Positions 1-19,098 of a stretch of 21,994 nucleotides of DNA are shown here, piece after piece. Source of the stretch: a virus. The number at the start of each line of letters is the position of its first letter. Position 1 is the first letter of the stretch. The translations under genes and the position numbers were made by a program. The stretch lies in the IMG/VR virus record IMGVR_UViG_3300031659_000113, positions 1 to 21,994 of that record; one strand, 5' to 3'. Under the pieces are notes generated by a model. That model made no database searches. It was not told the origin of the DNA and saw only the letters and a list, made by a program, of their open reading frames with translations.

Positions 1-1
1 C

Positions 2-58
2 AAAGACTTCTGGACTACAGAAGATATGACTGCTGCTAATGCTGCGATTGCAGCTTAA
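2..58 (+). CDS. 3' end of an upstream gene (partial, unidentified)
   Basis: An open frame enters from the left window edge and stops at TAA 56-58. The visible tail reads KDFWTTEDMTAANAAIAA, alanine-rich and probably helical. It ends six bases before the large terminase start. Its position directly upstream of the terminase suggests a small terminase subunit or another packaging protein, but too little is visible to decide. It could also be a chance open frame, although the tight spacing favours a real gene. Confidence 0.5.
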   Translation, partial: KDFWTTEDMTAANAAIAA

Positions 59-64
59 CCTTAA

Positions 65-1600
65 ATGGCAACACTAGACCAAATAAGACAGGCAGCTGAG
101 ACTGACTTGGTGACCTTCATCAAGTTGGTTGCCCCTGAGCAAGTCTTAGGGCAGTGTCATGAGGATGTGTGTAACTGGTGGACTCGACCTGACCATAAGA
201 GCCATCAGCTACTCCTCTTCCCTCGTGACCACGGTAAGTCAAGATTAATTGCATATCGTGTAGCTTGGGAGTTGACAAAGAACCCAACCTTGCGTATACT
301 ATACATATCTGCTACAGCTAACCTAGCTGAGAAGCAACTAGGATTCATCAAAGGTATCCTAACCTCTGAGACATACAGTCGTTACTGGCCTGATCATGTA
401 CACCCAGAAGATGGTAAGCGTACACGGTGGACCAACTCTGAGATCATGTTAGATCACCCCTCCCGTAAGAAAGAGAATGTACGTGACCCTTCTGTTTTCA
501 CTGGTGGACTTACAACCTCTCTCACTGGTATGCACTGTGATATTGCAGTTCTAGATGACATCGTAGTTTACGAGAATGCTTACACAGGTGAGGGTCGTAA
601 CAAGGTTAAGTCCCAATACTCTCTTCTGTCATCCATTGAGGGTGCAGAGGCACAGGAATGGGTTGTAGGTACACGGTACCACCCAGCTGACTTGTATAAC
701 AATCTACTACAGATGCAAGAAGACTTGTATGATGATGACGGTAACAAGGTTGGCGAAGAGGAGATCTACGAAACCTTTGAACGTCCAGTAGAAGACAACG
801 GTGACGGTACAGGTCAGATGCTATGGCCTCGTAGTCAACGTAGAGATGGTAAGTGGTTCGGGTTCGACATCAGGGTTCTAGCTAAGAAACGTGGACAGTA
901 CCTAGACAGAGGGCAGTTCCGTGCACAGTACTACAACGACCCAAGTGATCCTGACAACGTACCTGTAGGTAGTGACAAGTTCCAGTACTTCGAACGTAAA
1001 CACTTGAAGCAAGAGAACGGTTACTGGTTCTACAGAGATAACAAGTTAAACGTATATGCAGCTGTTGACTTCGCCTTTAGTTTATCTAAGAAGGCTGACT
1101 ACACAGCCATCGTTGTCATTGGCATTGATGCTGACAACAACGTGTATGTACTAGACATTGACCGTTTCAAGACTGACCGTATCTCAGATTACTTCGAGCA
1201 TATCTTTCAGTTATCTAACAAGTGGTCATTCCGCAAGATGAGGGCTGAGACAACCGTAGCTCAGGTAGCAATCGTTAAGCAACTCAAAGAGCTAGTGAAG
1301 CAGCATGGCCTGTCCCTCAGCATCGAAGAGTTCAGACCTAACAAGCACCAAGGCAACAAGCAAGAACGTATCTCAGCAGCCTTAGAACCTCGTTACGATA
1401 ACCTAAGCATGTGGCACTATAGAGGTGGTAACACTCAGATCCTTGAGGAAGAGTTGTCATCCCGTAACCCACCACATGATGATGTCATTGACGCACTAGC
1501 TTCAGTTGTGGACATGGCTATAAAACCGACACGTTCAGTCCGTAGGGACCGTGGTAACGTGGTACAATTTAACAAAAGATTTGGTGGAGTTGCCTTCTAA
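65..1600 (+). CDS. terL: Terminase large subunit (DNA packaging ATPase/nuclease)
   Basis: This is the packaging motor that translocates phage DNA into the prohead and cuts it. The 511-aa protein has both expected domains. The N-terminal ATPase shows a Walker A-like PRDHGKS at residues 53-59, Walker B AVLDD with acidic residues at 164-165, and a coupling-type motif GTRYH near residue 202. The C-terminal RNase H-like nuclease shows the acidic triad: D335 in AAVDFA, E395 in RAETT, and the HDDVID cluster at 471-476. T7 gp19 is 586 aa, so this is a somewhat short relative with all motifs present. ATG 65 is the only sensible start, but no clear Shine-Dalgarno precedes it (ccttaaATG), so translation may rely on coupling to the upstream gene. 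Its stop overlaps the portal start by one base (TAATG). Confidence 0.96.
   Translation: MATLDQIRQAAETDLVTFIKLVAPEQVLGQCHEDVCNWWTRPDHKSHQLLLFPRDHGKSRLIAYRVAWELTKNPTLRILYISATANLAEKQLGFIKGILTSETYSRYWPDHVHPEDGKRTRWTNSEIMLDHPSRKKENVRDPSVFTGGLTTSLTGMHCDIAVLDDIVVYENAYTGEGRNKVKSQYSLLSSIEGAEAQEWVVGTRYHPADLYNNLLQMQEDLYDDDGNKVGEEEIYETFERPVEDNGDGTGQMLWPRSQRRDGKWFGFDIRVLAKKRGQYLDRGQFRAQYYNDPSDPDNVPVGSDKFQYFERKHLKQENGYWFYRDNKLNVYAAVDFAFSLSKKADYTAIVVIGIDADNNVYVLDIDRFKTDRISDYFEHIFQLSNKWSFRKMRAETTVAQVAIVKQLKELVKQHGLSLSIEEFRPNKHQGNKQERISAALEPRYDNLSMWHYRGGNTQILEEELSSRNPPHDDVIDALASVVDMAIKPTRSVRRDRGNVVQFNKRFGGVAF
272..300 (+). promoter_or_regulatory. Possible sigma70 promoter inside the terminase gene
   Basis: TTGACA at 272-277 is followed by exactly 17 bases and TATACT at 295-300, one mismatch from the sigma70 consensus. 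It lies in sense within the terminase coding region, where it encodes the L-T-K and R-I-L-Y stretches, so it could be chance. If active it would start an RNA near 307 covering portal and downstream genes. No other promoter was recognised between this point and 5423. Confidence 0.35.
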
Positions 1601-3345
1601 TGGCTGGAACAACTATTGATTTAGACAGCATGATCGACCCACATGCTTTGGCTGTGGACATTGCTGACCGTTGGTCAACGTGGAACAAGGCTCGTCAACC
1701 GAAGCTTGAAGAGTGGAAAGAGTTGCGTAACTACATCTATGCTACAGATACTCGCACCACATCTAACAGCAAGCTTCCATGGACGAACAGTACAACAACA
1801 CCTAAGCTAACTCAGATTGCTGACAACCTACATGCTAACTACTTCTCAGCATTGTTTCCTCAGAAGCGTTGGTTTAAGTTCGAGGCTAACGATCAGGACT
1901 CAGCTACTAAGAGTAAACGAGATGTTATCCAAGCTTATATGGAAAACAAGATTCGTCAGTCTGACTTCACAACAACTGTAAGTAAACTTCTTAATGACTA
2001 CATTCAGTATGGTAACTGCTTCGCCACTGTTGAGTTCACACGGGACGTTACTGAGTATCAGGTAGGTGACCAAGTACCTCACTACGTAGGGCCACGTCTG
2101 GTGCGCCTCAGCCCCTTTGACGTATGCTTTAACCCTATCGCACCTGACTTCGACAACAGCCCTAAGATCATCCGTTCAGTTGTTACCCTCGGTGAGATTG
2201 CACGGCGTGTAGAAGAGAGTGTTGACAACGCCTACATGTCCCAGATCATGGAGAAGATGTTAGGCAACCGTGCTCACTCCTCAGGTAATGACATTGATGT
2301 GTCAAAGTCCCAAGGCTTCATTGCTGATGGTTTCTCATCCTTGCAGGAATACTACGAATCTAACTACGTAGAACTTCTTACCTTCTATGGTGACATCTAT
2401 GACAACGACTCAGGTGTGTTCCATAAGAACCGTGTTATCACAGTAGTAGACCGTTCATACATCCTTCTCAATGAGCAGAACCCAAGTTGGCTAGGTAAGT
2501 CCCCTGTGTTCCATGCAGGGTGGCGTGAACGTCCTGACAACCTCTATGCGATGGGTCCATTGGACAACCTCGTTGGTATGCAGTACCGCATTGACCACCT
2601 AGAGAACTTGAAGGCTGATGTGTTCGATCAGATCGCCTACCCAATGCTTAAGATCCGTGGTGACGTTGAGGACTTCGACTTCGAACCAGCTGCTCGTATC
2701 TACATGGGTGAAGAGGGTGACGTAGGTTACTTAGTTCCTGACTCTACAGCTTTGAATGCTGACTTCCAGATTCAGAACCTAGAGAACAAGATGGAAGCCT
2801 TAGCTGGTGCCCCACGTGAAGCTATGGGTATCCGTAGTGCAGGGGAGAAGACAGCCTTTGAGGTTAACCAACTGATGACAGCTGCTGGTCGTATCTTCCA
2901 GCATAAGACAGCACACTTCGAACGTGTGTTCCTTGAGCCAATCCTTAACTCAATGTTAGAGTCTGCTCGTCGTAACATGGACTATGCTGACACTGTAAGA
3001 GTACTGAATGACAACACAGGTTTGTTCTTCTTTGAGCAGATCACCAAGGAAGACATCAAGGCTAACGGACGTATAGTTCCTATGGGTGCTCGTCACTTTG
3101 CTGAACGAGCTAACCGTGTACAAGGTTTGACACAACTGTATCAGCTTAAGCTAGCTGACCCAACGATGGCTGCTCACTTGTCAGGTAAAGAGTTTGCTCG
3201 TCTACTTGCAGATGAACTAGGTGAACCAGCTTTGTTCGGTGAGAACGTCACAGTCGTTGAGCAGATGGAAACCCAGAAGGTTGCCACAGAAGCACAAGTT
3301 GACTTCGAGGAAGACCAACAGATCGCCATGGAGCAAGGTCTCTAA
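1600..3345 (+). CDS. Portal protein (T7 gp8-like head-tail connector)
   Basis: A 581-aa protein next to the terminase, in the position and size class of podovirus portal proteins (T7 gp8 is 536 aa). It would form the dodecameric ring at the head vertex through which DNA is packaged and to which the tail attaches. The N-terminal region (about residues 20-150) has the helix-rich, aromatic composition typical of this family (for example LPWTNS and NYFSALFPQKRWF). The C-terminal part (about 400-581) is helical, with the sequence APREAMGIRSAGEKTAFEV near 399-417 resembling the stem and clip transition of T7-like connectors. The start ATG overlaps the terminase stop by one base, implying coupled translation. 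The call rests on recognisable family character and gene order. Confidence 0.9.
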   Translation: MAGTTIDLDSMIDPHALAVDIADRWSTWNKARQPKLEEWKELRNYIYATDTRTTSNSKLPWTNSTTTPKLTQIADNLHANYFSALFPQKRWFKFEANDQDSATKSKRDVIQAYMENKIRQSDFTTTVSKLLNDYIQYGNCFATVEFTRDVTEYQVGDQVPHYVGPRLVRLSPFDVCFNPIAPDFDNSPKIIRSVVTLGEIARRVEESVDNAYMSQIMEKMLGNRAHSSGNDIDVSKSQGFIADGFSSLQEYYESNYVELLTFYGDIYDNDSGVFHKNRVITVVDRSYILLNEQNPSWLGKSPVFHAGWRERPDNLYAMGPLDNLVGMQYRIDHLENLKADVFDQIAYPMLKIRGDVEDFDFEPAARIYMGEEGDVGYLVPDSTALNADFQIQNLENKMEALAGAPREAMGIRSAGEKTAFEVNQLMTAAGRIFQHKTAHFERVFLEPILNSMLESARRNMDYADTVRVLNDNTGLFFFEQITKEDIKANGRIVPMGARHFAERANRVQGLTQLYQLKLADPTMAAHLSGKEFARLLADELGEPALFGENVTVVEQMETQKVATEAQVDFEEDQQIAMEQGL

Positions 3346-3588
3346 ATGAAGACAGCATGGCTAAAAGAATGTAAGACGAAAGAAGAGAAGGCACAGGTAC
3401 GACAACTTATCTTGTCAAACCGTGAGAGCCTTGATCGTCTCAAAGAAATCCTAGGGCCTATGCTCAAGGACACCCCACCTACTGCTGACTATGACAGCCC
3501 TTCATGGGCTTTCAAACAGGCTGATAGGATCGGGTTCAACCGAGCACTAACCACGGTGCTTGATCTTATCAACCTAGACAAGGAATAA
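3346..3588 (+). CDS. Small helical protein between portal and scaffold (unknown function)
   Basis: An 80-aa protein that begins immediately after the portal stop codon with no gap (TAAATG). It is charged and predicted helical in its first half (KTKEEKAQVRQLILSNRESL) and has a conserved-looking C-terminal half with YDSPSWAFKQADRIGFNRAL at about residues 49-68. Small proteins ending in a similar 'YDSP.WA..QA...G.NRAL' pattern occur beside portal or capsid genes in other marine podoviruses, as I recall. No enzymatic motif or membrane segment is visible. A role in head assembly is likely from context only. Confidence 0.8.
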   Translation: MKTAWLKECKTKEEKAQVRQLILSNRESLDRLKEILGPMLKDTPPTADYDSPSWAFKQADRIGFNRALTTVLDLINLDKE

Positions 3589-3591
3589 AAC

Positions 3592-4362
3592 ATGGTATTT
3601 ACTGACGGTGCTGAAACCACACAGACCGACCAGTCCCCAGAGAATCAAGCACAAGAGACCTCACCACAGGAATCTTATGTACAGAAACTCGTAGAGGCAA
3701 AGGGAGATAACTGGAGCAATCCTGAGACTCTTGCTAAAGGAAAACTCGAAGCTGATGGCTACATTAAGACTCTAGAAGAGCAGCTAGCACTCATGCGAGA
3801 GGACATCCAGAAGAAAGATTATCAAGCTCAAGTTCTTGAACAACTCCAGAATAAGGCCACTGACACTACCGCAGTGAAGGATGGAGTGCCCAATAATAAC
3901 GGTAACACGAATGCACAGAACACCACTGATAGCATTAGTGAGGAACACCTGAAGAGCCTTGTTGAGAAGACACTGACACAGAGGGAGAACGCTACTGCTG
4001 TCAAGCAGAACCTATCCCACGTAGATCAGGAGCTAAGCAAAAGCTTTGGCACAGAAGCCACAGCAGTTGTAACTAAGAAAGCTGAAGAGCTAGGTATGTC
4101 AATGGATCGTTTACGTGACATTGCAGCTGAATCTCCTAACGCCTTCTTTGCTCTTATCGGTGAAGCACCTAAAGCCCAACAGAACCCTATGGTTCAAGGC
4201 TCGGTACGAACTGAGGGTGTCAACATGCAAGTCTCGGCAGAACGTAATTGGTCATACTACCAAAAGCTACGCCGAGAGAACCCACACGAATACTATTCTC
4301 CCCGTAATCAACAACAACTTATCTCAGATAAGATGAAGATGGGCGATAGGTTCGGTAACTAA
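3592..4362 (+). CDS. Capsid assembly scaffolding protein
   Basis: A 256-aa, acidic, highly charged protein directly upstream of the major capsid gene, the classical scaffold position (T7 gp9 is 307 aa). The N-terminal 30 residues are polar and probably disordered (rich in Q, E, T, S). A coiled-coil-like segment spans about residues 48-90. A second charged helical stretch follows at about 120-190. The C-terminus (RRENPHEYYSPRNQQQL near 226-242) is basic and aromatic, as expected for a capsid-binding tail. Scaffolds act inside the prohead and are lost on maturation. The ribosome binding site AAGGA precedes ATG 3592. Confidence 0.85.
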   Translation: MVFTDGAETTQTDQSPENQAQETSPQESYVQKLVEAKGDNWSNPETLAKGKLEADGYIKTLEEQLALMREDIQKKDYQAQVLEQLQNKATDTTAVKDGVPNNNGNTNAQNTTDSISEEHLKSLVEKTLTQRENATAVKQNLSHVDQELSKSFGTEATAVVTKKAEELGMSMDRLRDIAAESPNAFFALIGEAPKAQQNPMVQGSVRTEGVNMQVSAERNWSYYQKLRRENPHEYYSPRNQQQLISDKMKMGDRFGN

Positions 4363-4396
4363 ACTCTCTTAAACACAACACAAAAGGACTAGCACA

Positions 4397-5371
4397 ATGG
4401 CTGGCATGATTTCCTCCAATGCTGATACACAGCGTTTAATCCGTTCAGAGGTATACTCTTCTGAACTAAAAGACATCCTACGGGACGAGATGCAAGCACA
4501 ACGTTATGTACGTATGCTTGACGGTTTCCCAGATGGTGACACTTTCACAATCCCAACAATCGGTAAAACAACCGTAGCTGACTACACTGAAGATGCAGCA
4601 GTTGCTTACACACCGATGGACACAGCTGAGTTCTCTTTCACAGTTGATAAGTACTTGCAGTCTGCAACATACCTAACCAAGAAAGCTGCGCAAGATTCAT
4701 TCTATTCAGCACAGCTTGAAGCACGGTTTGTACCAGAGCAAGAACGTGCCATCCTTGAGCACTTTGAGTCAACCACATTTGCATCTCCAGAAGTCGGCGT
4801 AACAGCTAACTCAGCAGAAACAACTGATGGTGTTGCTCACCGTATCTCAGGTGGTAACTCAGGTGTCATGGAACTAGCTGACTTTGCATTCGCACGTTAT
4901 GCGTTGAAGAAGTCTAACGTTCCAGATCGTGGCTTGGTTGCAGTTGTTGACCCATCCGTTGAGTACCAACTAAACACATTGACAAACTTGACCAACGTGT
5001 CAAACAACCCAATGTTCGAAGGTATTGTTCGTGATGGTATCGCAACTGGTATGCGCTTCGTAGCTAACGTCTATGGCTTCGATGTATATACATCCAACTA
5101 CTTGAAGACAACTGTTGCAGATGCAGCATTGCTCGAAAAAGATGGTACAACTGGTAATGACTTCTCGTCTAACGCTGGTGTTGCTAACTTGTTCTTCTCA
5201 GCTGATGCGGGTGCTAACCCATTCGTTGGTGCATGGCGTCAAATGCCAGAGGTTGACTATGAGTACAACAAAGACAACCAACGTCACGAGTATGTAACTA
5301 CAGCTCGTTACGGTGTTAAGAAGTACCGTCCAGAAGGTATCGTTACAATCGTAACTAACCCTGCTGTATAA
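4397..5371 (+). CDS. Major capsid protein
   Basis: A 324-aa protein after the scaffold gene and in the size range of T7-like capsid proteins (about 345 aa). It should adopt the HK97 fold and form the icosahedral shell. The N-terminal arm (MAGMISSNADTQRLIRSEVY) is followed by a segment with FPDGDTFTIPTIG near residues 49-61, characteristic of podovirus capsid proteins. The C-terminal part ends in a beta-rich ARYGVKKYRPEGIVTIV strand region. A good ribosome binding site (AAGGACT) lies about 8 bases before ATG 4397. The 34-base upstream gap and the hairpin just downstream set this gene apart as a highly expressed unit. Confidence 0.93.
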   Translation: MAGMISSNADTQRLIRSEVYSSELKDILRDEMQAQRYVRMLDGFPDGDTFTIPTIGKTTVADYTEDAAVAYTPMDTAEFSFTVDKYLQSATYLTKKAAQDSFYSAQLEARFVPEQERAILEHFESTTFASPEVGVTANSAETTDGVAHRISGGNSGVMELADFAFARYALKKSNVPDRGLVAVVDPSVEYQLNTLTNLTNVSNNPMFEGIVRDGIATGMRFVANVYGFDVYTSNYLKTTVADAALLEKDGTTGNDFSSNAGVANLFFSADAGANPFVGAWRQMPEVDYEYNKDNQRHEYVTTARYGVKKYRPEGIVTIVTNPAV

Positions 5372-5383
5372 CTACTAAAGGTT

Positions 5384-5402
5384 GGGGGGCTTCAGGCTCC
5401 CC
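5384..5402 (+). terminator. Hairpin after the major capsid gene (terminator or attenuator)
   Basis: The arm GGGGGGC at 5384-5390 pairs with GCTCCCC at 5396-5402 (7 pairs, one of them G-U) around a 5-base loop TTCAG. It starts 12 bases after the capsid stop codon. The following bases (TTCCTACTTAAACTTTTC) are T-rich but not a clean T run, so termination may be partial, or the hairpin may protect the 3' end of the capsid mRNA. Confidence 0.7.
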
Positions 5403-5422
5403 TTCCTACTTAAACTTTTCTA

Positions 5423-5451
5423 TTGACAGATGCTTCAAACCCCTGTATAAT
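5423..5451 (+). promoter_or_regulatory. Exact-consensus sigma70 promoter
   Basis: TTGACA at 5423-5428, a 17-base spacer and TATAAT at 5446-5451 match the housekeeping bacterial promoter consensus in every position, including spacing. Transcription should begin near 5458, giving a leader of about 45 bases before the decoration protein start at 5503. It lies in the non-coding gap directly after the capsid hairpin, so the capsid unit and the tail unit are probably separately transcribed by host RNA polymerase. Confidence 0.9.
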
Positions 5452-5490
5452 TTCTTTACCTTGGCAGGGCCACTAGTATATATCCCCTAC

Positions 5491-5503
5491 GGAGATTCCC
5501 CCA
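5491..5503 (+). promoter_or_regulatory. Ribosome binding site deciding the start at ATG 5503
   Basis: GGAG at 5491-5494 sits 8 bases before ATG 5503. A TTG at 5461 is in frame upstream but has no Shine-Dalgarno and falls at or within a few bases of the predicted transcription start. ATG 5503 is therefore the likely start. Confidence 0.75.
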
Positions 5504-6069
5504 TGGCTAACGTGAACCATTCCACACTAACTGACCCATACCTACATGAGCCTAAGGGTGTAGCAACTGCTTCCGCAGGTTCTCTATACTATGCTGACGG
5601 TTCAGGCAGTGGTGCATGGAACCATGCTCATCATTATGTAGGTGGCTATGTAGACTTCGATTCAGCTAGCCCTGAGTCACAAGCTATTACAACTACCTTC
5701 TCAGCCCTAGACCCTACGTTTGCTCTAGCTGAAAACAGTGGCTTCACAGCCCTTAGCTCTCCGAATGCTCGTATTCGTTATGATGAGCCTGAGGCTATGA
5801 TTGCCACCCTGAGTTTCTCAACTTCTATTCGTCATGCAGCTGGTGGTTCTCGTGATGTAGAGCTTGCTCTATACCAGAACGGTACTATCATCAATGGTGC
5901 TCACGTAATCCAGACTACAGGTAACAGTGACTGGAACAACGTCACACTTGTTGGTCAAGTAGAACTAGCACAGAACGACTACATTGAAGTGTTTGCTAAA
6001 GCTAGTCAATCACTAACCCTTGAGACAGCCTCAGCCTTCCTAACAATCAAAGGGGTGTTCAAGCCATGA
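5503..6069 (+). CDS. Putative capsid decoration/head fibre protein
   Basis: A 188-aa protein located between the major capsid gene and tail tubular A. The N-terminal third carries a motif I associate with marine-phage decoration or head-fibre proteins (DPYLHEPKGVATA, then SLYYADGSGSGAW). The rest is beta-rich with alternating hydrophobic strands (for example VELALYQNGTII, VTLVGQVELAQNDYIEVFAKA), suggesting a C1q/TNF-like jelly-roll. A likely role is binding the outside of the capsid and stabilising it or contacting surfaces, which is inference from motif and position. It is the first gene behind the consensus promoter, so it may be made in quantity. Its stop overlaps the next start by four bases (ATGA). 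Confidence 0.75.
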   Translation: MANVNHSTLTDPYLHEPKGVATASAGSLYYADGSGSGAWNHAHHYVGGYVDFDSASPESQAITTTFSALDPTFALAENSGFTALSSPNARIRYDEPEAMIATLSFSTSIRHAAGGSRDVELALYQNGTIINGAHVIQTTGNSDWNNVTLVGQVELAQNDYIEVFAKASQSLTLETASAFLTIKGVFKP

Positions 6070-6791
6070 AGACTACACTCCTACAGATCGTACAGTCTAT
6101 CCTAAGTGATATGGACTCAGAGGGTGTCAATAGTATTAGTGACACAATCGAAGCACAACAGGTTGCTTCAGTAGTTGAAGACACGTACTACAACATTATA
6201 GCTGCACGGGATATTCCTGAGCATAATAAGTTGATGTCACTTGTATCTGCGGGTAACTCAGCTAAACCTACTCACTTCAGTTACCCAATTAACACAAAGC
6301 ACGTTGAACGTATTGAATACAACATTGGCACAGCTACAGACAAGAACTATCAGGTTATCTTTTATGTTGAGCCTATGGTCTTCCTTGATCGAATGGACGA
6401 AGACGACCTACGTGTTGAGACCTTTGAAGCTGGTGTAGACATCTTTGTCAACTCCACTAAGACCCCTTCATACTACACATCTTTCGATGACGAATACATC
6501 ATTATGAATGCTTACGATTCAACAGTAGAAGCTGCACTACAGAACAACAAGGTTCGTGCGTTTGGTTCTACCTACCCAATCTTTAGTCAAACAGATACAC
6601 ACAAACCTGATCTAGACAATACAATGTTTCCTATGCTTTTAGCTGAGTCTAAGTCAGCTTGCTTCTCCTTGTTTAAAGGGGGTCCAGACCCTAAGGTAGA
6701 ACAGTCGTCTCGTCGTCTCAAGTCCTACATCCAGAACAACATGCACAAGAGTAGTCGTGCTAACATTAAGAATAAATACGGGAGAAAGTAA
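6066..6791 (+). CDS. Tail tubular protein A (T7 gp11-like adaptor)
   Basis: A 241-aa protein upstream of tail tubular B, matching the T7 order gp11-gp12 (T7 gp11 is 196 aa). It should form the ring connecting the portal to the nozzle. The N-terminal helix region (ILSDMDSEGVNSISDTIEAQ, residues about 12-31) is followed by VASVVEDTYYNIIAARDIPEH, a pattern typical of this family, where the early helices clamp the portal. The middle is beta-rich and the last 40 residues are basic and helical. It begins inside the decoration gene stop (ATGA) and ends in a TAATG overlap with the next gene. Confidence 0.85.
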   Translation: MKTTLLQIVQSILSDMDSEGVNSISDTIEAQQVASVVEDTYYNIIAARDIPEHNKLMSLVSAGNSAKPTHFSYPINTKHVERIEYNIGTATDKNYQVIFYVEPMVFLDRMDEDDLRVETFEAGVDIFVNSTKTPSYYTSFDDEYIIMNAYDSTVEAALQNNKVRAFGSTYPIFSQTDTHKPDLDNTMFPMLLAESKSACFSLFKGGPDPKVEQSSRRLKSYIQNNMHKSSRANIKNKYGRK

Positions 6792-7102
6792 TGGTTGAGT
6801 TCTTTCATGACACACAGAACCAAACGTGTGTATGTAAGACTGACAAGATGCTCTCAACCATAACGATCTCTAAGGAGATAGGCGGTTATTGTTTCTTTGT
6901 TGTTACTGTCGAGAAGGGAAGTGTTCCTACTGAACTAGGTGGTCGGTACTCAAGTATACCTAAAGCCCAGACAGCAGTTGAGCAGTACCTAAAAACCAAA
7001 CGTAAGTCAGCTACAGTTCGTAGAAACGAGTTTAGTGAAGACTTCGACAAACGTAAGAAGGTAAAAGATGCCGCAAAGTCTAGGTCAAAAGGCAATAAAT
7101 AA
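6791..7102 (+). CDS. Small basic protein between tail tubular A and B (unknown function)
   Basis: A 103-aa protein whose ATG overlaps the tail tubular A stop by one base. The first 65 residues look like a small compact domain with beta strands (STITISKEIGGYCFFVVTV). The C-terminal 40 residues are strongly basic (KRKSATVRRN, KRKKVKDAAKSRSKGNK) and may bind DNA or RNA or an acidic partner. No known family is recognised. Its last 35 bases overlap the start of tail tubular B in another frame, an unusually long overlap for this genome but compatible with expression of both. Confidence 0.75.
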   Translation: MVEFFHDTQNQTCVCKTDKMLSTITISKEIGGYCFFVVTVEKGSVPTELGGRYSSIPKAQTAVEQYLKTKRKSATVRRNEFSEDFDKRKKVKDAAKSRSKGNK

Positions 7103-9185
7103 CTTCGTTCGTGGTCTCATTACTGAGGCTTCTGAACTTACGTTTCCTGAGGGTGCTTCTGTAAATGAAGCTAACTGTGACCTTCGTCGTGACGGTACAC
7201 GGAGACGTAGGCTATCAGCCAAGGTAGAGGACAGCAGTGTGTTGTCTTCTTTTACTTTGTCAGATACCGAAGTTGTTGCTACAGGTGACTGGGTTAACGT
7301 TGGCGGTAATGCTGACCTAACCTTCCTTGTGGTACAGAAGGGTTCTACCCTTTACTTCTATAACAAAGCTGATCTACCTTACTCAGCACAGATCGAAGCT
7401 GCATCCTTTAACCTTGCAACCCATGAATACGCAGGTTCAGCTGGTGCTGAGACAGTTAAGTGTCAGTTCACAAGCCTCAAGGGTAACCTTATAGTATCCT
7501 CCCCAGCTATCAATACGGTAGCTATTGAGTATGACGCAGGTACCCTCACAGGCACAGCTGTAGCCTTTAAGACTAGAGACTTTGAGTGGCAGGGTGACAT
7601 TGACACATACTACGAAAACGACAGCTCACCATCTAACGCACGTAAGTACGATGCACAGAACGCAGGTTGGAACGTAGGTAACGGTGCACCATCTGACTTA
7701 ACCAAACGCCTTACTCACCCTTGGTTCTCAGGTAAAGACGAAAACGGTTCTTATTCCTCAAGTGAGTGGGAGCTAATCTACGGTGGTACATCACTTACAG
7801 GTAACGGTCACTATTTACTTGACTTCTTTAACAAGGTTCGCCCTCACGTAGGCGCAGAAGCTGAGACCTCACGTTTCCGTTGTGTTGAGTCCTTTGCTGG
7901 TCGTATCTTTTACTCAGGTCTTGAGAGTTCTAAGAACGCAGGTACAATCCTGTTCTCTAAACTGGTTGACACCATTAATGACTTAGGTCGTTGTCACCAA
8001 CAGAACGACCCAACATCTGAGAACATGTCAGACTTGCTGGCCACTGACGGTGGTGAGATCAAGATTCCTGATGCTATTAAGATCCAACGTCTATACGCAT
8101 ATCAGTCATCTTTGTTTGTCTTTGCTGAGAACGGTGTATGGCAGATCACAGGTGTTGACGGTATCTTTTCAGCTTCACAGTACTCCGTTAACCGTGTGTC
8201 ACGTGTGGGTCTACTACAGCCTGAGACCTTTGTATCAGCAGATGGTACACCTTTCTGGTGGTCACGGTTTGGTATTCATACATTACAGAGTGACCCAGTA
8301 TCCCTACAGGGTTCAGAACAGAACTTGACAATCCCTACCATCCAGACCTTATGGGATAATATTAGCACAGATGCTAAGCTTAAGGTTACCGCAGCCTACG
8401 ATAGTATCAACAAACGTATCTACTGGGCTTACCCTGATGATGATGAGACTGTATCGTCTAAGCTTAATAACTTCCTTATCTTGGACATTCCACTACAGGC
8501 TTTCTTCCCATGGAAGGTATCAGACCAAACATCAAGCACATCCTCAGTTGTAGGTTTGTCATTCTACTCAGGCTTCGGAGCTAAAAATCTAGAACTTGAT
8601 GTAACAGCTAACAACGGTGTTGATGATGTAGTTCAGGGTGGTGACGACATTGTATCCCTTCAGGTGTCAACCTTTAACACGGGTGACCCAGCTATTGTTC
8701 TACTTGTTCGTGACGGTGCAACCAACAAGATAACTATGGGTGGTTTCACAGGCACTGACTTCTTGGACTGGGGTGACACAGACTACTCATCCTTTGCTGA
8801 GACAGGCTATGACTTCATTGGTGATCTTGTCACTAAGAAGAATGCACCATACATTGTGGTTTACTCTCGTCTTACAGAAGAGGGTTTCACAGGTAACGAA
8901 AACATAGGCTACGAAGCTATTCGTCCCTCATCACTTAAGGTCTCAACCGCTTGGGACTTTAATGATACTTTTGGAACTAGTCAACAAGCATACAGATTGA
9001 AGCATCCAGTGGTTGTCAACCCCAGCAACTTGTCTGACTTCAATTACCCTGAGGATGTGGTTACCACCAGACTTAAAGTATTAGGTCATGGTAGGTCAGT
9101 ACGTATCCGTTACGAGAGTGAAGCAGGTAAAGACTTCTTGCTTCTAGGTTGGGGTTTAATCCAAGGAAAGAACCCAAGGTACTAA
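7068..9185 (+). CDS. Tail tubular protein B (T7 gp12-like nozzle)
   Basis: A 705-aa protein (T7 gp12 is 794 aa) that should form the hexameric tail nozzle. The N-terminal signature FVRGLITEASELTFPEGAS (residues about 13-31) followed by NEANCDLRRDGTRRRR is typical of the family in marine podoviruses. The centre has beta-propeller-like repeats, including SFAGRIFYSG near 276-285, FVFAENGVWQITGVDG near 352-367 and FWWSRFGIHTL near 393-403. The ribosome binding site GAAGG lies about 8 bases before ATG 7068, inside the preceding gene. Its stop overlaps the next ATG (TAATG). Confidence 0.92.
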   Translation: MPQSLGQKAINNFVRGLITEASELTFPEGASVNEANCDLRRDGTRRRRLSAKVEDSSVLSSFTLSDTEVVATGDWVNVGGNADLTFLVVQKGSTLYFYNKADLPYSAQIEAASFNLATHEYAGSAGAETVKCQFTSLKGNLIVSSPAINTVAIEYDAGTLTGTAVAFKTRDFEWQGDIDTYYENDSSPSNARKYDAQNAGWNVGNGAPSDLTKRLTHPWFSGKDENGSYSSSEWELIYGGTSLTGNGHYLLDFFNKVRPHVGAEAETSRFRCVESFAGRIFYSGLESSKNAGTILFSKLVDTINDLGRCHQQNDPTSENMSDLLATDGGEIKIPDAIKIQRLYAYQSSLFVFAENGVWQITGVDGIFSASQYSVNRVSRVGLLQPETFVSADGTPFWWSRFGIHTLQSDPVSLQGSEQNLTIPTIQTLWDNISTDAKLKVTAAYDSINKRIYWAYPDDDETVSSKLNNFLILDIPLQAFFPWKVSDQTSSTSSVVGLSFYSGFGAKNLELDVTANNGVDDVVQGGDDIVSLQVSTFNTGDPAIVLLVRDGATNKITMGGFTGTDFLDWGDTDYSSFAETGYDFIGDLVTKKNAPYIVVYSRLTEEGFTGNENIGYEAIRPSSLKVSTAWDFNDTFGTSQQAYRLKHPVVVNPSNLSDFNYPEDVVTTRLKVLGHGRSVRIRYESEAGKDFLLLGWGLIQGKNPRY

Positions 9186-9484
9186 TGGACTTCATCTCAA
9201 CAAGCCTGTTTGGAATCAAAGGTACAAGTTTTGACATCCGATTAGAGTACAACGAAGAGTACATCATAGTTCACTTACCCAGAGTAAGCAAGATGGACAA
9301 AAGAGCCTTCGTTGAAATGAGAACACTACTTAACGACTGGATCAAGTTCTTCAATACAGTCGGGTACAAAGTTTTATTTGCAGTAGTAGAACCAAACAGC
9401 ACTACTGAAAGATTAGCTGTACTACTAGGTTTTACTTTTGTATCACCTTATGAAGAACAACATGTATATAAGTACGAAGGATAG
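9185..9484 (+). CDS. GNAT-like small protein in the T7 gp13 position
   Basis: A 99-aa protein. The start chosen is ATG 9185, which overlaps the tail tubular B stop by one base; an in-frame TTG at 9149 would add 12 residues inside the tail gene and is less likely. The C-terminal half (residues 60-87) has the order GYKVLFAVVEPNSTTERLAVLLGFTFV, with asparagine, a helix and LGF as in the last part of GNAT acetyltransferases. The N-terminal acceptor part of a full GNAT (about 150 aa) is missing, so catalysis is doubtful. T7 gp13 sits at this place and is needed for virion assembly. The role here is inferred by synteny. Confidence 0.75.
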   Translation: MDFISTSLFGIKGTSFDIRLEYNEEYIIVHLPRVSKMDKRAFVEMRTLLNDWIKFFNTVGYKVLFAVVEPNSTTERLAVLLGFTFVSPYEEQHVYKYEG

Positions 9485-9487
9485 GTC

Positions 9488-9922
9488 ATGCCACAAGCAG
9501 TTATGGTGATCGGAGCAGTAGTTACAGCAACCGCCACAGTAGCCTCAATGAATCAACAGAAGAGAGCAGGTAAAGCACAAGCTGCGGCTACACAAACCCA
9601 GATTCAAATGCAGAGAACAAAGGCTACACGTGAACGCCGTCAAAGTATTCGTTCAAATATAGCTGCTCGTGCTCGTATGAGAAACCAAGCTGAACTAACT
9701 GGTGTGGCTGGTAGCTCAGGTGCTCAAGGTGGTGCGTCAAGTGTAAGTTCACAGGGTGGAGCTAACCTAGGGTTTAGTTCCCAGATGTCAGGTCTCGGCC
9801 AACAGTTCACAACCTTCTCAGGTCAAGCTGCACAGGCCAGCTCTAAAGCAGCTATGTTTGGTAGCTTAGCTAGCCTAGGTGGGTCGGTGATGTCCTTTGG
9901 TCAAAGTATGCTCCCCAAATGA
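9488..9922 (+). CDS. Internal virion protein, T7 gp14-like
   Basis: A 144-aa protein in the position of T7 gp14 (196 aa), which is ejected and forms a pore in the outer membrane. Residues 1-20 are hydrophobic (AVMVIGAVVTATATVA). A basic, glutamine-rich helix spans about 22-68 (KRAGKAQAAATQTQIQMQ, RERRQSIRSNIAARARMR). The C-terminal half is rich in Gly, Ser, Ala and Gln and ends with a moderately hydrophobic helix (about 124-141). This amphipathic, low-complexity make-up is usual for gp14-like proteins. The ribosome binding site AAGGATAGG precedes ATG 9488. Identification is by position and composition, not by catalytic motif. Confidence 0.75.
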   Translation: MPQAVMVIGAVVTATATVASMNQQKRAGKAQAAATQTQIQMQRTKATRERRQSIRSNIAARARMRNQAELTGVAGSSGAQGGASSVSSQGGANLGFSSQMSGLGQQFTTFSGQAAQASSKAAMFGSLASLGGSVMSFGQSMLPK

Positions 9923-9973
9923 TGATACTTAAGATCTACCTAGTATTCAATACCTTAAAGTAAGGACACTTCT

Positions 9974-12900
9974 ATGGCTAATCCCATTTCTCTTGAAGAC
10001 CAAATAGCAAACGAACAGGTTCTCAAGGGAGAAGTTGAGGACGTAGCATCTACTGAGATCTATGATGCTAACCTACAGACCGAGATCAACAGGGCACTAG
10101 AACTTGCCATTGGTACAGGCCAACCTCTTGACGTTGTTAAGGATGCACGTAGTAAACTTGACACAACCCTTGATCAGACAGCTGTAGCTGCATCACCTGT
10201 TGTTGATGTTAACGGTCTTGTTGACAAAGGTCTAGAGAACGGTATCTCAGCTGAGGACCTAGCTACTGTCATCAGGGAACGGAACGAGAAGAAAGACGAT
10301 ATGTCCTTCGCTGAGTTCTCCCTGTTGCAGAGTCTAGTAGCCACTGATGATTCTGTCAATGCTCCAGCTGCTCGTACCCTAGCTAACATGGATGTCTTCG
10401 ATAAGATGATCCAGAAGAGACTTGAAGCTGATGAGTCGTCAACACTCAGTAAGGTTGGACAGTTCCTTGACATTCACATTCTTCGTCAGGCTGTCATAGG
10501 TAACTTCGAGGATATAACGTATAGCTCTAACCGTTCAGGTAAGGCTATCCGTGAAGCTTTCAACACACTGTCAGCTGATGACTTCAAGTTGTGGGCTGAG
10601 GACTTCATTGAAGCTCAGAGCCAAGAGGGTGTCTTCACAGAGGACAGTATCTTTAACCTGTACCGTGCAGTTAATGACAGAACCTACTTAGGTGATGACC
10701 CACTAGCTAACGTTGATGCAGCATTTGGTGCGGTTGAGATCATACCTGTAGCTGGTACCATTCTTAGTCGTGTAGGTAAGGCAGGGACAAGTGCCCTCCG
10801 TACAGCACGTGCACTAAAAGCCTTGAACAAAGGTATTGTCGATGCTGACTCTATCGAAAGACTGACTGAACTAGCTAATGCTCGACTACCAGTTGACAAA
10901 GTAGCTGTAGTTCGTGGTGAAGTAGAGGCAGCTGAGGTCTTAGCTCGTAACGTAGATGCTGAGGGAATGCACCTAGATGCAGCTTCGGTAGGTAGACAAG
11001 GCCCTGAGGCTTTAGACCCTGTTGCTGGCCCTGATGCTCGACCTGCTGGCCCTTCCACACGTTTCCATGGTCGTCGTAATGCCTTAATAGAAGCTATTGA
11101 GAATATCCGTAAACGAGGTACGTTTGGTCGTATTGTGTCAGACGCAGAAGTAGCAGAAGAAGCTGCAAGAATTGCTGCCCGAATAGCTGATTCAGTAAAT
11201 GATGTAGTTGTCAACACTGTAACTCGTCGTGATGAGGGATCAGAAGACTACGTTGTAACTGTTCGTATGGGTAAGTCAGGCACTGGCTCAGCTTTTCGTC
11301 GTAAGATGGATGCTGAAGCTGTAGCTGCACAAGACCCTAGCCTGTATGTTGTCAAACGTGATGAAGGTCGTGGTTGGTTTGTTGAGACTGAGCAGCGTAT
11401 TGACATACTAGGTATGCCAGAAGCAGCACAAGCCTATAAATACAACAACATTGTAAGTGATGCCATCTCTAAGGTCTTTGGTGCATCTACTCGTAGGCTG
11501 AGTGACAAGGTAGGGGCTATGTTCCTACAGGCTGAGGCTGGTTTGTCATTACTGCCTAAGATTGCTAAGCCATACTTAAAGTCATTCAACAACCTTAAAG
11601 GTGCTGACAAGGAAGAGTTGAGTTCATTCTTTGAACATCTTCGTGACGGTGACCTATCTCACCTACGTGAAGCCCCTGACACAGTTCGTTTCAAAAGCTT
11701 ATACAAGACTATGTACAAACGTGCGCCGTCTAAGCAGACGGTAAAAGCATATGAAGACCTACAGGTTCTTAACGATGCGTCATGGCACATGAAGTCAGAG
11801 AAACGTCTAAAGGATACAGTGGCAGCTAATGGTGTCTATGCTGAACTTGCAGATGGATACGGTGACGTTGCCTACAAGGTTGACCAACCAGCTAACAAAC
11901 TAGCTGATGACGACATGATCTATGATATTGCTACTGGTCGTTCAATCCCTAAGACTGACTTAGGTTCTGATCAACTTGTATTCAAGGTACCATCAATCTT
12001 TGAAGGACACATGTTTGTCACTAACGTGAAACGTACTCGTGTACTCGAACGTGTTGACGTGATGCCATATAACGTTGGTGGTCCTCGTACTAACAGCCAA
12101 TTCCGTTGGTTCGTAGGATCTAACCGTACAGTAACTCTAGCTTCAGGTAAAGAAGTACAGCAGGGTTTCAGTACGATCTTAGGTTCCTTTGGTCAGAAGC
12201 AAGCTAAGGCTGCAGTTGACGAACTTAACAACATCACAGCTGAGATTAGACGCCTACTAGAAGAACAGAGTGTAGACAACATTGGTGACCTTAAACTAAC
12301 TAAGGCTCAAGAGGAGGAACTCGGTGACTTCATCCGTGCTAACAACAAGTGGGACCCTGAGGTTACCGACCTAGCTGACCTACAGAGAATTGCAGAAAAG
12401 AAGAAGTTTACCTTCACTGAGGAGTTCGCAGGTAAGGCTCGTGATGAACGAGTATCAATCGGTGATGACATAGATGATACCCACTTCGGTATGTCTGTAG
12501 GTGAGTCACACAGCACACGCCTTAACGAGAAACGTGGTGACACAGTTCTCAAAGAATACGGTGGTGCACTTCCTGTGAATGCTAGTCCAGCTGCAGCTAT
12601 GGCTGACCAGTTCGGTTCTGAGACCTTCGGGTATGCTAACCGTGCAGCCTCACAGAATGCAGTTGTGTCATGGGTTAAGCTAGCTGAAACAACAGGTGGT
12701 GCTGTAACGTTCCCTACAGATGTAGGTAAGAATGATTACCTTGGTAGGTTCCTAGGTGCTAAGGTGTCAAAGACTGGTGGTTACGACGACATCACTGCTC
12801 AGCTACGTGAACAACAAGACGTGATTAAACGTAGATTGAACCAACCCACATGGTTAAGTGACAAATGGGAAGTAGCAACTACACAAGCCACTGAGTTTAT

Positions 12901-14476
12901 CTTCGGTGCCACAGGTAAGAAGGTTGACCTAACTGGTTCTGACCCAGCATCACGCCTTATGCAGGTAGGTTTCTACTCTAAGTTTGGTTTCTTGAACATT
13001 GATCAGTTCGTGTTACAGAGCCTTCACTCCCTGACTGTTGCAGCTATCTCACCTATCCATGGCTCAAAGGCTGTAGGTATGGCTACACCACTACTTGTCA
13101 TCACTAAGCTTAAGGACGGACCTACTCGTGCATTAGCTATCAAACGTATGGCTAAACTCACTAAGCCTCTAGGTCTAGATGAAGCTGAACTAACCGATAT
13201 GGTAGACTGGATTAACCAGAGTGGCCGTAACATCGTTGATGACTCCATTGTGGAACTTCAGGGACCACAGAAGTACGGTGCCTCAAGCAATCTACTGGCT
13301 AAAGGAAAAGAAGCAGCTGGTGGTCTCCTAGACAAGAGTACTGTCTTCTTTAAGGAAGGTGAACGTGCCTCTCGTATGGTAGGACTGGTGACAGCTTACC
13401 TTGAGCACAGAGCTAAACGTCCAAATGAAAGCCCTATGTCAGATGAAGGTCTACTTTGGCTCACGAACCGTGAACAAGATCTAACATTCCGTATGACATC
13501 ACAGTCAAAGAACCTTGTAACTGGTGGACCTGCTCGTGTACCTGCTCAGTGGTTGTCCTTCACAATGGCAGCTATGGAGAATGTAATTGTTGGTCGTAAC
13601 TTCACAGGAGGTGAACGTGTTCGTATGGCCTTAGCTATGGGGCCTATGTTCGGATTGACAGGCGTAGGTGCTGGTCACATGACAGGCTACGTAGTCGAGA
13701 AGATGGGCTATGAAGCTGATGACCCAGATGCGGTAAATGCGTACAACAACCTTAAGTTTGGTTTCATGGATCAAGCCTTGTCATACCTACTGGGTACTGA
13801 GACTGCGTATGCGACCCGTGTAGCCCCTATTGATCAGGTCTTTGACGTGTTTAGAGGCTTCAAGGAAGACAGTGTACTAGAGACCTTGTTTGGTCCATCA
13901 GGTTCTATTGTCAATGACATCCGTAAGCCTATATCTAATGCTCTTGGTTACATCATGACTGAGGGTTCATGGGAGCTTCTCAAGGATGACGCAATTCAGG
14001 TTGCTCGTAACATCTCTACGGTAGATAAGATCTACAAGATACGTGAGATCGTTGAATCAGGTAACTACATGAGTAAAACTAGTAAGGTAGCTGTCAGTGG
14101 TATGGAAACCAACGATGCACTTTCTGTTGCCTTCGGTGCTACACCAGCACCTGTACAGAACTTCTATGACTTCAAGGATATTCAGTACAAAGAGACAGCT
14201 ATTGTCAAAGAGACACGTACTCGTTTACAACAAAAAGCTAGAGTTGCATTAAACCTCTTGAATAGTGGTTCAAAAGATGATATGATAAGAGGTGATCGCA
14301 TGTGGGAAGCTATTAACGCAGAGATTTCCCTGTCTCCTCTATCTAAGAAGAACAAGGCTTCGATCACAAGGTCTCTAGTGACAGCTAATGACATCCTAGA
14401 CCTCCTGAGAACAGCTTCTGGACTAACTCCAGCTGCCCAGTTCGAAGCACGTATTCTAAATCAACAAGTAAATTAA
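9974..14476 (+). CDS. Giant internal virion protein (T7 gp16-like position, 1500 aa)
   Basis: The largest gene of the window, one unbroken frame. T7 gp16 is 1318 aa and forms part of the ejected core channel, and this protein probably does the same job. It is mostly helical. Residues about 339-361 form a Pro/Ala/Gly linker (GPEALDPVAGPDARPAGPS) dividing an N-terminal domain of about 340 aa from the rest. A region near 1010-1050 (FYSKFGFLNIDQFVLQSLHS) and one near 1185-1245 contain hydrophobic helices that could contact membrane. I see no lysozyme or transglycosylase motif (no clear E-S or GLMQ pattern), so the peptidoglycan activity carried by T7 gp16 appears absent here and may sit in the GH24 protein at 16,467. 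The ribosome binding site AAGGACA precedes ATG 9974. Confidence 0.82.
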   Translation: MANPISLEDQIANEQVLKGEVEDVASTEIYDANLQTEINRALELAIGTGQPLDVVKDARSKLDTTLDQTAVAASPVVDVNGLVDKGLENGISAEDLATVIRERNEKKDDMSFAEFSLLQSLVATDDSVNAPAARTLANMDVFDKMIQKRLEADESSTLSKVGQFLDIHILRQAVIGNFEDITYSSNRSGKAIREAFNTLSADDFKLWAEDFIEAQSQEGVFTEDSIFNLYRAVNDRTYLGDDPLANVDAAFGAVEIIPVAGTILSRVGKAGTSALRTARALKALNKGIVDADSIERLTELANARLPVDKVAVVRGEVEAAEVLARNVDAEGMHLDAASVGRQGPEALDPVAGPDARPAGPSTRFHGRRNALIEAIENIRKRGTFGRIVSDAEVAEEAARIAARIADSVNDVVVNTVTRRDEGSEDYVVTVRMGKSGTGSAFRRKMDAEAVAAQDPSLYVVKRDEGRGWFVETEQRIDILGMPEAAQAYKYNNIVSDAISKVFGASTRRLSDKVGAMFLQAEAGLSLLPKIAKPYLKSFNNLKGADKEELSSFFEHLRDGDLSHLREAPDTVRFKSLYKTMYKRAPSKQTVKAYEDLQVLNDASWHMKSEKRLKDTVAANGVYAELADGYGDVAYKVDQPANKLADDDMIYDIATGRSIPKTDLGSDQLVFKVPSIFEGHMFVTNVKRTRVLERVDVMPYNVGGPRTNSQFRWFVGSNRTVTLASGKEVQQGFSTILGSFGQKQAKAAVDELNNITAEIRRLLEEQSVDNIGDLKLTKAQEEELGDFIRANNKWDPEVTDLADLQRIAEKKKFTFTEEFAGKARDERVSIGDDIDDTHFGMSVGESHSTRLNEKRGDTVLKEYGGALPVNASPAAAMADQFGSETFGYANRAASQNAVVSWVKLAETTGGAVTFPTDVGKNDYLGRFLGAKVSKTGGYDDITAQLREQQDVIKRRLNQPTWLSDKWEVATTQATEFIFGATGKKVDLTGSDPASRLMQVGFYSKFGFLNIDQFVLQSLHSLTVAAISPIHGSKAVGMATPLLVITKLKDGPTRALAIKRMAKLTKPLGLDEAELTDMVDWINQSGRNIVDDSIVELQGPQKYGASSNLLAKGKEAAGGLLDKSTVFFKEGERASRMVGLVTAYLEHRAKRPNESPMSDEGLLWLTNREQDLTFRMTSQSKNLVTGGPARVPAQWLSFTMAAMENVIVGRNFTGGERVRMALAMGPMFGLTGVGAGHMTGYVVEKMGYEADDPDAVNAYNNLKFGFMDQALSYLLGTETAYATRVAPIDQVFDVFRGFKEDSVLETLFGPSGSIVNDIRKPISNALGYIMTEGSWELLKDDAIQVARNISTVDKIYKIREIVESGNYMSKTSKVAVSGMETNDALSVAFGATPAPVQNFYDFKDIQYKETAIVKETRTRLQQKARVALNLLNSGSKDDMIRGDRMWEAINAEISLSPLSKKNKASITRSLVTANDILDLLRTASGLTPAAQFEARILNQQVN

Positions 14477-14485
14477 GGAAAAACT

Positions 14486-16465: not shown

Positions 16466-16466
16466 C

Positions 16467-17759
16467 ATGGAATCACAATTCGGAAGCAGATCAAAGGTCG
16501 TAGCTAAAGGTAAGGCTAATGTGGAAACAGCTGCTGCGCCTCAGGTAACACCTCAAGCAGCACCTCAGGTAGCCCCGACTAATGACACAGGTGGTATTGA
16601 AGGTATGTTACGTTCTCTGCTGAGTGAGTTTCTAGGTGATCGTGGTAACCCAACCTTACCTGCCGCCCCTAGTGTTACAACTACAGAGCTAGGCCCTACT
16701 ATAGATACCCTTGCTGTGCAAGATGCTCAGGAACAGGCAGCTATCCGTTCAGCTTCTGGTATCACTGAGTCACTAGGTCGTCCTACAGGTACAGCTATGA
16801 CTGAAGTAAATGAGTTTACCACTACTCCTGAAGGTGACTCAGGTGCTGGGGTTACTGTAGGGGTAGGGGATGCAATGATTGTCAGAAACCCTACGCAGGG
16901 TCTTACATCTGCACCTGTACAGGATACAGTATCAGAGGTTGATACAGGTACAGCTGAAGCTTTGGAAGTGGATACAACATTTGCTACCATTACAAAGAAT
17001 GGTACATCGACTACAGTAGAACAAACAGTTCCCCTTACTGAAGGCTTTGATAGCCTTACGTTAGCAGAGGGGACTAATATACACTTGGACGGTAGAGGTT
17101 TTGTTACTCTTCCTCACGGGATTGTACCTGATGCCAACAGTATCAAGAAAGCTGACGGTACAGCCTTTGATCCAACAGGTCGGCATGGACTAAGGGCAGG
17201 TTCCTTGTCAAGTGTTGACTACTCAGCTGCAACTAAGTTTGGTATTTCCCGCACAGACTACACAGATGATGAGGCATGGGCCAAAGCTGTCTACGCAGAA
17301 TTTGGAGATAGGACAGCAGGAAGTTATGGAACAGGTTTCTCTGACCTTACAGATAGAGCTAAGCAAGCTGCCTATGACATGACATGGAATGCTGGTATAG
17401 GTGCAGCCTCTTGGTCGTCAGTGCAGACAATGCTTACTGAAGCTAGTAAGGAAGATGACAATACTAAAAGTACAGATAACCTTATCGGTTTTACCACTAA
17501 CTTTAAATCAGGTACGGAAAAGGTGGACGGAGTTACAACAAAGAACTACCCAAGAGGTCTGTTGAAACGCCGTGCTCAAACTTATAACCTTGTAGCAAAG
17601 ACTGGTGAAGAAGCTTCTACTATTACAACAGAATCTGTTATGACAAACGGTGAGCGGACAGGCACTAAGTACGACATAAAGAAAGACGGTGGTACTGTGT
17701 TAAAATCTTGGACAAAACCTGATTTGAATGAAAGATTAGGTGACTTGGAGGTTAACTAA
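16467..17759 (+). CDS. GH24 (T4-lysozyme-like) peptidoglycan hydrolase with long N-terminal extension
   Basis: A 430-aa protein starting at ATG 16467 (AAAGG about 10 bases upstream); an in-frame upstream extension to 16335 lies within the preceding gene and is rejected. Residues 1-185 are low complexity (Ala, Pro, Thr, Val, with APQV-type repeats at 24-37). The C-terminal region (about 186-385) resembles GH24 lysozymes: EGF with E192 as catalytic acid, then D208-G-R-G-F-V-T214 followed by G218. The D-x-x-G-x-x-T-x3-G spacing is the same as D20...T26...G30 of T4 lysozyme. The later YDMTWNAG and RGLLKRRAQTYNL motifs also fit. E to D spacing is 16 instead of 9, implying a short insertion. It should cut glycan strands during DNA entry, host lysis or both. 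Its stop overlaps the holin candidate start (TAATG). Confidence 0.78.
   Translation: MESQFGSRSKVVAKGKANVETAAAPQVTPQAAPQVAPTNDTGGIEGMLRSLLSEFLGDRGNPTLPAAPSVTTTELGPTIDTLAVQDAQEQAAIRSASGITESLGRPTGTAMTEVNEFTTTPEGDSGAGVTVGVGDAMIVRNPTQGLTSAPVQDTVSEVDTGTAEALEVDTTFATITKNGTSTTVEQTVPLTEGFDSLTLAEGTNIHLDGRGFVTLPHGIVPDANSIKKADGTAFDPTGRHGLRAGSLSSVDYSAATKFGISRTDYTDDEAWAKAVYAEFGDRTAGSYGTGFSDLTDRAKQAAYDMTWNAGIGAASWSSVQTMLTEASKEDDNTKSTDNLIGFTTNFKSGTEKVDGVTTKNYPRGLLKRRAQTYNLVAKTGEEASTITTESVMTNGERTGTKYDIKKDGGTVLKSWTKPDLNERLGDLEVN
16536..16577 (+). repeat. Short Ala-Pro-Gln coding repeats
   Basis: Within the N-terminal extension of the GH24 protein, residues 24-37 read APQVTPQAAPQVAP, three imperfect copies of a four-residue unit. 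The DNA repeats the element CCTCAGGTA/CCTCAAGCA. It probably encodes a flexible linker, and slippage could change its length between relatives. Confidence 0.6.
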
Positions 17760-19013: not shown

Positions 19014-19014
19014 T

Positions 19015-19089: not shown

Positions 19090-19098
19090 ACAAAAATA

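Follow-up and report, generated by a model that had tools for sequence, protein, structure and literature searches.

Bacteriophage T7 possesses one terminator for its own RNA polymerase, which lies immediately behind gene 10, and its genes 11 and 12 are expressed by readthrough only (PMC5592923, in the part available). Cobaviruses were reported, in the available parts of the literature, as globally distributed marine phages devoid of an RNA polymerase gene, and SIO1, CRP-4, CRP-5, and related roseophages are described as lacking such a gene in the available text of PMC6775973 and PMC6918029. The genomes of cobaviruses contain a bidirectional rho-independent terminator between their two arms (available part of PMC6775973; feature table). 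Control of the Q type requires a Q binding element between the -35 and -10 hexamers (available part of PMC6606751). No description of the timing and dosing of cobavirus late genes was found in the cobavirus literature searched, as far as its text was available, and no transcript study of a cobavirus was found in the literature searched. The words "promoter" and "sigma" occur nowhere in the available main text of PMC6775973, PMC6918029, and PMC8528129, and the records of ICBM1 and ICBM2 contain no annotated promoter or terminator at the gap behind the capsid gene.

In our study, the window (the whole stretch of DNA analysed, a virus contig of 21,994 bases that represents a partial genome) was found to belong, on the basis of its capsid protein and gene order, to a Veravirus-like cobavirus, a marine virus that infects bacteria. 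The capsid protein showed 93.2% identity to that of Lentibacter phage ICBM2 and 91.7% identity to those of Roseobacter phages CRP-5 and CRP-4, all three of which are members of Cobavirinae, genus Veravirus; the identity to the Sioviruses ICBM1, P12053L, and SIO1 ranged between 54 and 57%. The order of the genes mostly matched that of ICBM2 and CRP-5.

Anatomy of the capsid gap and the genes behind it

The gap between the stop codon of the capsid gene (ending at 5371) and the next ATG (5503) comprised 131 bp, in which a G/C hairpin, TTGACA, a 17-nt spacer, TATAAT, a 45-nt leader, GGAG, and the ATG could be read directly in this order (Table 1). The sequence-only reading had described a perfect TTGACA-17-TATAAT behind a hairpin after the capsid stop, followed by a leader of 45 bases; the sequence confirms the promoter at 5423–5451 and, given the predicted start at 5458, the leader at 5458–5502.

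Table 1. Features of the capsid gap and of the neighbouring genes in the window.
Feature	Position	Strand	Remarks
Major capsid protein gene, upstream neighbour	4397–5371	+	PHROG major head protein, E 4e-38; 93% identity to annotated ICBM2 capsid
G/C hairpin, core 5384–5402	5379–5407	+	fold -18.6 kcal/mol; candidate attenuator, 3'-end element or weak terminator
T-rich tract directly upstream of -35	5416–5422	+	possible UP-like sequence or displaced terminator T-tract
-35 hexamer TTGACA	5423–5428	+	exact; exact in 78/78 distinct promoter-bearing gaps
-10 hexamer TATAAT	5446–5451	+	exact; exact in 73/78 distinct promoter-bearing gaps
Predicted transcription start A, 7th base past -10	5458	+	placed from spacing; A in 35/39 distinct-spacer rows
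Untranslated leader, 45 nt	5458–5502	+	predicted start to base before ATG
GTATAT downstream motif, +19 to +24	5476–5481	+	common to Veravirus-type leaders
GGAG, likely ribosome-binding site	5491–5494	+	identified by eye
First gene, 188-aa protein, predicted TNF/C1q-like jelly-roll fold	5503–6069	+	phrog_38624 (unknown function)
Tail protein, tubular protein A position	6066–6791	+	phrog_7592 tail protein, E 9e-66; ICBM2 annotation
Tail appendage / tubular protein B	7068–9185	+	phrog_8094, E 8e-178; ICBM2 annotation

The promoter was the sole site with a score of 12/12 in the consensus scan of the window (1–20000), and an exact site with a spacing of 15–19 occurred once in the whole 21,994-base record; the expected number of exact sites with a spacing of 16–18 on both strands was about 0.01 (first-order Markov). 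Promoter-like sites as a class were not more numerous than in the shuffled sequences, with 29 found in 1–20000 against a shuffle mean of 26.0. The reversed-pattern control gave no match in the record of the window or in the 17 records of the first set and the 24 of the second set that were searched for exact promoters. The consensus hexamers are those of E. coli, and we infer that they would be active in a host of the Roseobacter group as well. An extended -10 element (TGn) was ruled out, as the conserved TG sits one base too close to the -10 hexamer, and no Rfam family matched the window when gathering thresholds were applied. Within the terminase gene, TTGACA-17-TATACT (11/12) was present at 272–300 on the plus strand; a similar in-gene site recurs in the relatives G006, G008, and G012 and probably results from conserved protein sequence.

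A hairpin was scored as terminator-like when a G/C stem was followed by at least 5 T nucleotides in the best 8 bases directly behind it. The hairpin of the window contained 3–4 T nucleotides behind the stem, below this threshold of 5, so termination at this particular hairpin appears doubtful; it was also absent from the 14 terminator-like sites that the scan recorded in the window (shuffle mean 13.9). Counting back from the -35 hexamer, T was present at positions 7, 6, and 5 in 39, 39, and 37 of the 39 distinct-spacer rows, respectively. By its sequence this T-rich tract can serve the hairpin or the upstream region of the promoter, and it fits both.

The model of the 188-aa protein encoded by the first gene behind the promoter (AlphaFold2, alignment A1, 39 sequences) was all-beta with a mean pLDDT of 88, and its best Foldseek matches in the PDB were ExsFA, BxpB, and EDA-A1, which are jelly rolls of the TNF/C1q type. 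The sole PHROG match of the protein is of unknown function and no family match to "decoration" was found; a decoration or head-surface role is plausible. When compared by position, the gene that follows the equivalent gap bears the annotation "tumor necrosis factor-like domain protein" in Vibrio phage 1.077 and "possible head fiber" in CW02, and in O4 a "head fiber" gene precedes the corresponding gap.

Conservation of the promoter and the hairpin

The gaps compared were those of the window, of three Veravirus phages, of SIO1, and of two sets of IMG/VR loci, namely 80 of the Veravirus type (the best of at least 596 relatives) and 80 of the Siovirus type (the best of 191). L210–L212 stop before the capsid stop codon and were omitted, leaving 162 loci with 92 distinct gaps; the loci are related and hence not independent, and ICBM2 is present twice among them (L001, L018). 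A gap was called promoter-bearing at a score of at least 10/12, so that the likeness of the hexamers within this class is partly a matter of choice, and the support lies in the break between scores of 6–8 and 10–12. The promoter was present in 130 of the 162 loci (124 exact) and in 78 of the 92 distinct gaps, with 57/84 loci in the first (Veravirus-type) set and 73/78 loci in the second (Siovirus-type) set. A lack of hexamer conservation in relatives would have counted against the sequence-only reading; this comparison was run and the promoter withstood it, as 73 of the 78 distinct promoter-bearing gaps were exact, followed by two with a score of 11 and three with a score of 10. The remaining 14 distinct gaps (32 loci) scored 6 to 8 or were too short, and none scored 9. 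As the scores fall at 10–12 or at 6–8, with no decaying middle, the presence of the promoter looks all-or-none.

The exact gaps contained 44 distinct spacers, 39 of which were 17 nt long, and a 16-nt spacer was found in 8 of the 73 exact gaps. The 39 distinct 17-nt spacers showed a mean pairwise identity of 0.45 and formed 16 clusters below 65% identity. Fixed hexamers beside diverged spacers are, at the level of sequence, the pattern of selection on the hexamers. ICBM1, P12053L, and SIO1 have the promoter in the same position, and it is present in both the Veravirus and the Siovirus types.

The promoter was missing in 32 of the 162 loci, among them the cultured CRP-4. The capsid tree (FastTree), built from 121 of the 162 loci after the removal of identical protein-plus-gap pairs and short rows, required at least seven changes of the promoter state, many of its forks being weak. 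The rows without a promoter comprised the CRP-4 group together with its sister group, L058, L079, L082, L203, L042, and the distant L214–L216. These changes and the scattered promoterless rows indicate that loss and exchange of the promoter occur. L042 contained a promoterless gap of the CRP-4 type beside the capsid gene of another clade, which suggests recombination near the gap. In the Siovirus-type gaps of L159, L169, and L204, TTGACA-16-TATCCT was followed by a leader that resembles those of the Veravirus type and has a stem-loop at its 5' end; by their sequence these gaps look like an exchanged promoter cassette.

The hairpin was kept in 89 of the 92 distinct gaps, the three exceptions being gaps of 14–25 nt. 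Among the relatives, 10 variants of the stem closed by a TTCG loop were found, and several of its pairs had changed on both sides. A hairpin followed by a T-tract was present in 57 of the 78 distinct promoter gaps when any 5-pair stem within the first 70 nt was taken, in 54 of 78 when the count was repeated with the main hairpin only, and in 3 of the 11 promoterless gaps of at least 40 nt by either count. All 11 of these distinct promoterless gaps contained a strong hairpin, and the 32 promoterless loci mostly retain the hairpin. Eight phages were sampled outside Veravirus and Siovirus, of which T5S1-k141_653015 is placed in Cobavirinae. The corresponding gap contained a hairpin and a T-tract in six of the eight (six of the seven outside Cobavirinae), namely in Vibrio phages 1.015 and 1.077 and in VpV262, Klyazma, O4, and CW02; this combination was not found in the corresponding gap of MEP402 or T5S1-k141_653015. 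No promoter was found in the eight outside gaps, where the best score was 7–9 of 12. The presence of hairpin and T-tract without the promoter in outside phages suggests that the hairpin is older than the promoter.

Leaders and further promoters in the same phages

The TATAC or GTATAT motif was present at +13 to +30 in all 20 distinct long Veravirus-type gap leaders, in one of the six short Veravirus-type leaders, and in two of the 29 Siovirus-set gap leaders. TATAC was found at +14 to +30 in 33 of the 88 distinct-spacer promoters, a set that includes in-gene chance sites and Siovirus gap leaders; 300 shuffles that preserve base composition only gave a mean of 2.5 and a maximum of 7, and the background of TATAC was 1.6%. 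This positional pattern is well above chance in the sequences compared, with relatedness inflating the count. The motif was also present near +20 at many genome-end promoters and resembles a -10 hexamer only roughly; it may act as an operator, a pause element, or a part of the leader RNA. A 5'-terminal stem-loop common to all leaders is not proposed, as the leader of the window was ordinary (0.22 of shuffles as good) and the Siovirus-set leaders contained mostly none or a weak one. The 5' stem-loop beat nearly all shuffles in some genome-end and near-primase leaders and in a few capsid-gap leaders. A pattern combining promoter and leader core matched 1 of 13 records, but it was over-strict and missed the leader of the window itself.

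At least one exact promoter was found in 14 of the 17 first-set records and in 23 of the 24 second-set records. The number of exact sites per record of the relatives ranged from 0 to 6, and some of these sites lie near the genome ends, so that the capsid-gap promoter belongs to a small group. The earlier statement that exact promoters are rare is true of the window, with its single site, but does not extend to the records of its relatives. In ICBM2 (L115), exact sites occurred in the capsid gap, close to the right end (directed outward), and close to the primase gene (directed against the early genes). The right-end site (40364–40392, plus strand, 12/12) is directed at the terminal repeat, with the late arm behind it; the best promoter score on the plus strand of 1–1200 was 9/12. 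Should the outward promoter serve the left arm, this would be possible only across joined ends, in a circle or a concatemer. The near-primase site (2645–2672, minus strand) possibly gives an antisense transcript, and apparent counterparts, matched by sequence, were found in L124 (471–498, minus strand) and L126 (8412–8439, plus strand).

No 12/12 site was found in the whole records of CRP-4, G005, and G002, all of which are devoid of the capsid-gap promoter; G014, also without it, contained three exact sites. The loci concerned are the CRP-4 record (L117) and L131–L135. The genome-end site of CRP-4 was TTGACA-17-TACCCT, followed by repeated CTTAAAGGATA-like words, a sequence that hints at another mode of promoter recognition. 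In ICBM1, P12053L, SIO1, and two IMG/VR records, two promoters each share the first 20 letters from the -10 hexamer onward; in ICBM1 these are the promoters of the capsid gap and of the right end, the latter pointing into the late arm. An identical start of the 5' leader (TATAATAGTCTTAACAAGTC) was present at two promoters of one Siovirus genome, L118, at 29335–29377 and 39846–39888, both on the minus strand, and also in L119 and L120; in L118 it contained AGTCT twice, 10 bases apart.

Explanations and comparison with known systems

The feature is real and conserved; it varies on parts that are known, its place is recognisable, and it does not represent a new kind of system. We consider it likely that cobaviruses conserve a capsid-end hairpin followed by a sigma-70-type host promoter that restarts transcription, and the promoter is very probably a working restart point. 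Judged from anatomy and comparison, transcription from upstream would stop or decrease at the hairpin, with a strong effect in gaps that have a T-tract and a weak one in the window, and host RNA polymerase would restart at about 5458 and transcribe the jelly-roll gene and the tail genes. The hairpin would then be an old capsid-end terminator or attenuator, behind which cobaviruses later placed a consensus host promoter. The layout of hairpin and promoter fits the separate control of capsid and tail transcripts that had been proposed for this locus. The proposal that unmodified host RNA polymerase is used stands in part: host polymerase fits and no polymerase gene was reported, but a consensus promoter is no proof of the word "unmodified".

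That the promoter is a chance match without function is extremely improbable. Promoter-like sites as a class do not exceed the shuffles (29 against 26.0), and 32 of the 162 loci do without a promoter; against this stand the expectation of about 0.01 exact sites and the hexamers that stayed fixed in two genera whose spacers diverged, and conservation refutes the chance reading as far as sequence can. A serious candidate, which falls just short of an even chance, is that the promoter is real and the hairpin is no terminator; the hairpin would protect or set the 3' end of the capsid mRNA, as an exonuclease barrier or a processing site, transcription from upstream would continue into the tail genes, and the promoter would do no more than add to this readthrough. 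The copy in the window is without a T-tract, and in the promoterless gaps of at least 40 nt the hairpin was always kept (11/11) with few T-tracts (3/11), from which its role seems not to need the restart, whereas the T-tract behind the hairpin in 57 of 78 promoter gaps (54 by main hairpin) and in six of the eight outside phages points toward termination.

The restart promoter might also be constitutive from genome entry instead of late, and its place in the structural arm would then matter little for timing. An exact consensus promoter in principle needs no activator, and in the available literature no phage polymerase gene was reported in the group; yet the conserved sequence past the start (the shared Siovirus leaders, and TATAC/GTATAT near +20) hints at added control, and we regard this explanation as possible but somewhat less than even. 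The same conserved sequence could instead mark a phage-wide set of promoters with a common initially transcribed element that either binds a phage factor or induces a sigma-dependent pause, as in the lambdoid Q-dependent late promoters. The excess of TATAC over shuffles (33/88 against a mean of 2.5, maximum 7) and the same leader start at two places in five Siovirus-type records agree with such a set, which is nevertheless improbable: short Veravirus-type leaders (1/6) and Siovirus-set gap leaders (2/29) mostly go without the motif, the motif is only roughly -10-like, and the spacers are not conserved, though control of the Q type needs its element there (PMC6606751, in the part available). 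A lambdoid Q-dependent late promoter as such was weakened by the absence of a conserved spacer sequence (39 spacers, mean identity 0.45). It is unlikely, though conceivable, that cobaviruses run a temporal programme on host polymerase alone, in which a few consensus promoters (genome end, capsid gap, and, in ICBM2, near primase) would be coordinated through the shared initially transcribed element, read either by a factor of the phage or by way of a sigma-dependent pause, and the capsid-gap member would restart transcription behind the capsid terminator. The shared element would be TATAC/GTATAT near +20 in the Veravirus type and the common 5' leader sequence in the Siovirus type. A regulator can be tested for by way of this shared downstream element.

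The promoter resembles the bacterial sigma-70-type consensus promoter in both exact hexamers, in the spacer of 17 (16 in some relatives), and in the A at the expected start. The hairpin shares with the bidirectional arm terminator of the same phages the use of hairpin-based transcription punctuation, whereas that terminator lies at the junction of the arms instead of following the capsid gene. Other Zobellviridae (VpV262, CW02, Klyazma, O4, 1.015, and 1.077) contain a G/C hairpin and a T-tract at the corresponding place in the gene order; they differ in having no promoter above 9/12 and in that the gap follows one or two extra small genes behind the capsid gene. The position of the cobavirus hairpin, between the capsid gene and the tail genes, is that of T7 T-phi, a hairpin that limits downstream transcription (available parts of PMC5592923 and PMC3276506); the likeness is one of position, and common descent is not implied. 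T-phi acts on T7 RNA polymerase, whereas in cobaviruses no phage polymerase was reported and a host-type promoter directly follows the hairpin. T7 obtains its next two genes by readthrough, whereas cobaviruses have a predicted new start there, and if this holds, the conserved hairpin with its restart promoter would offer a simple solution to the dosage problem for which T7 uses T-phi, namely much capsid and less tail.
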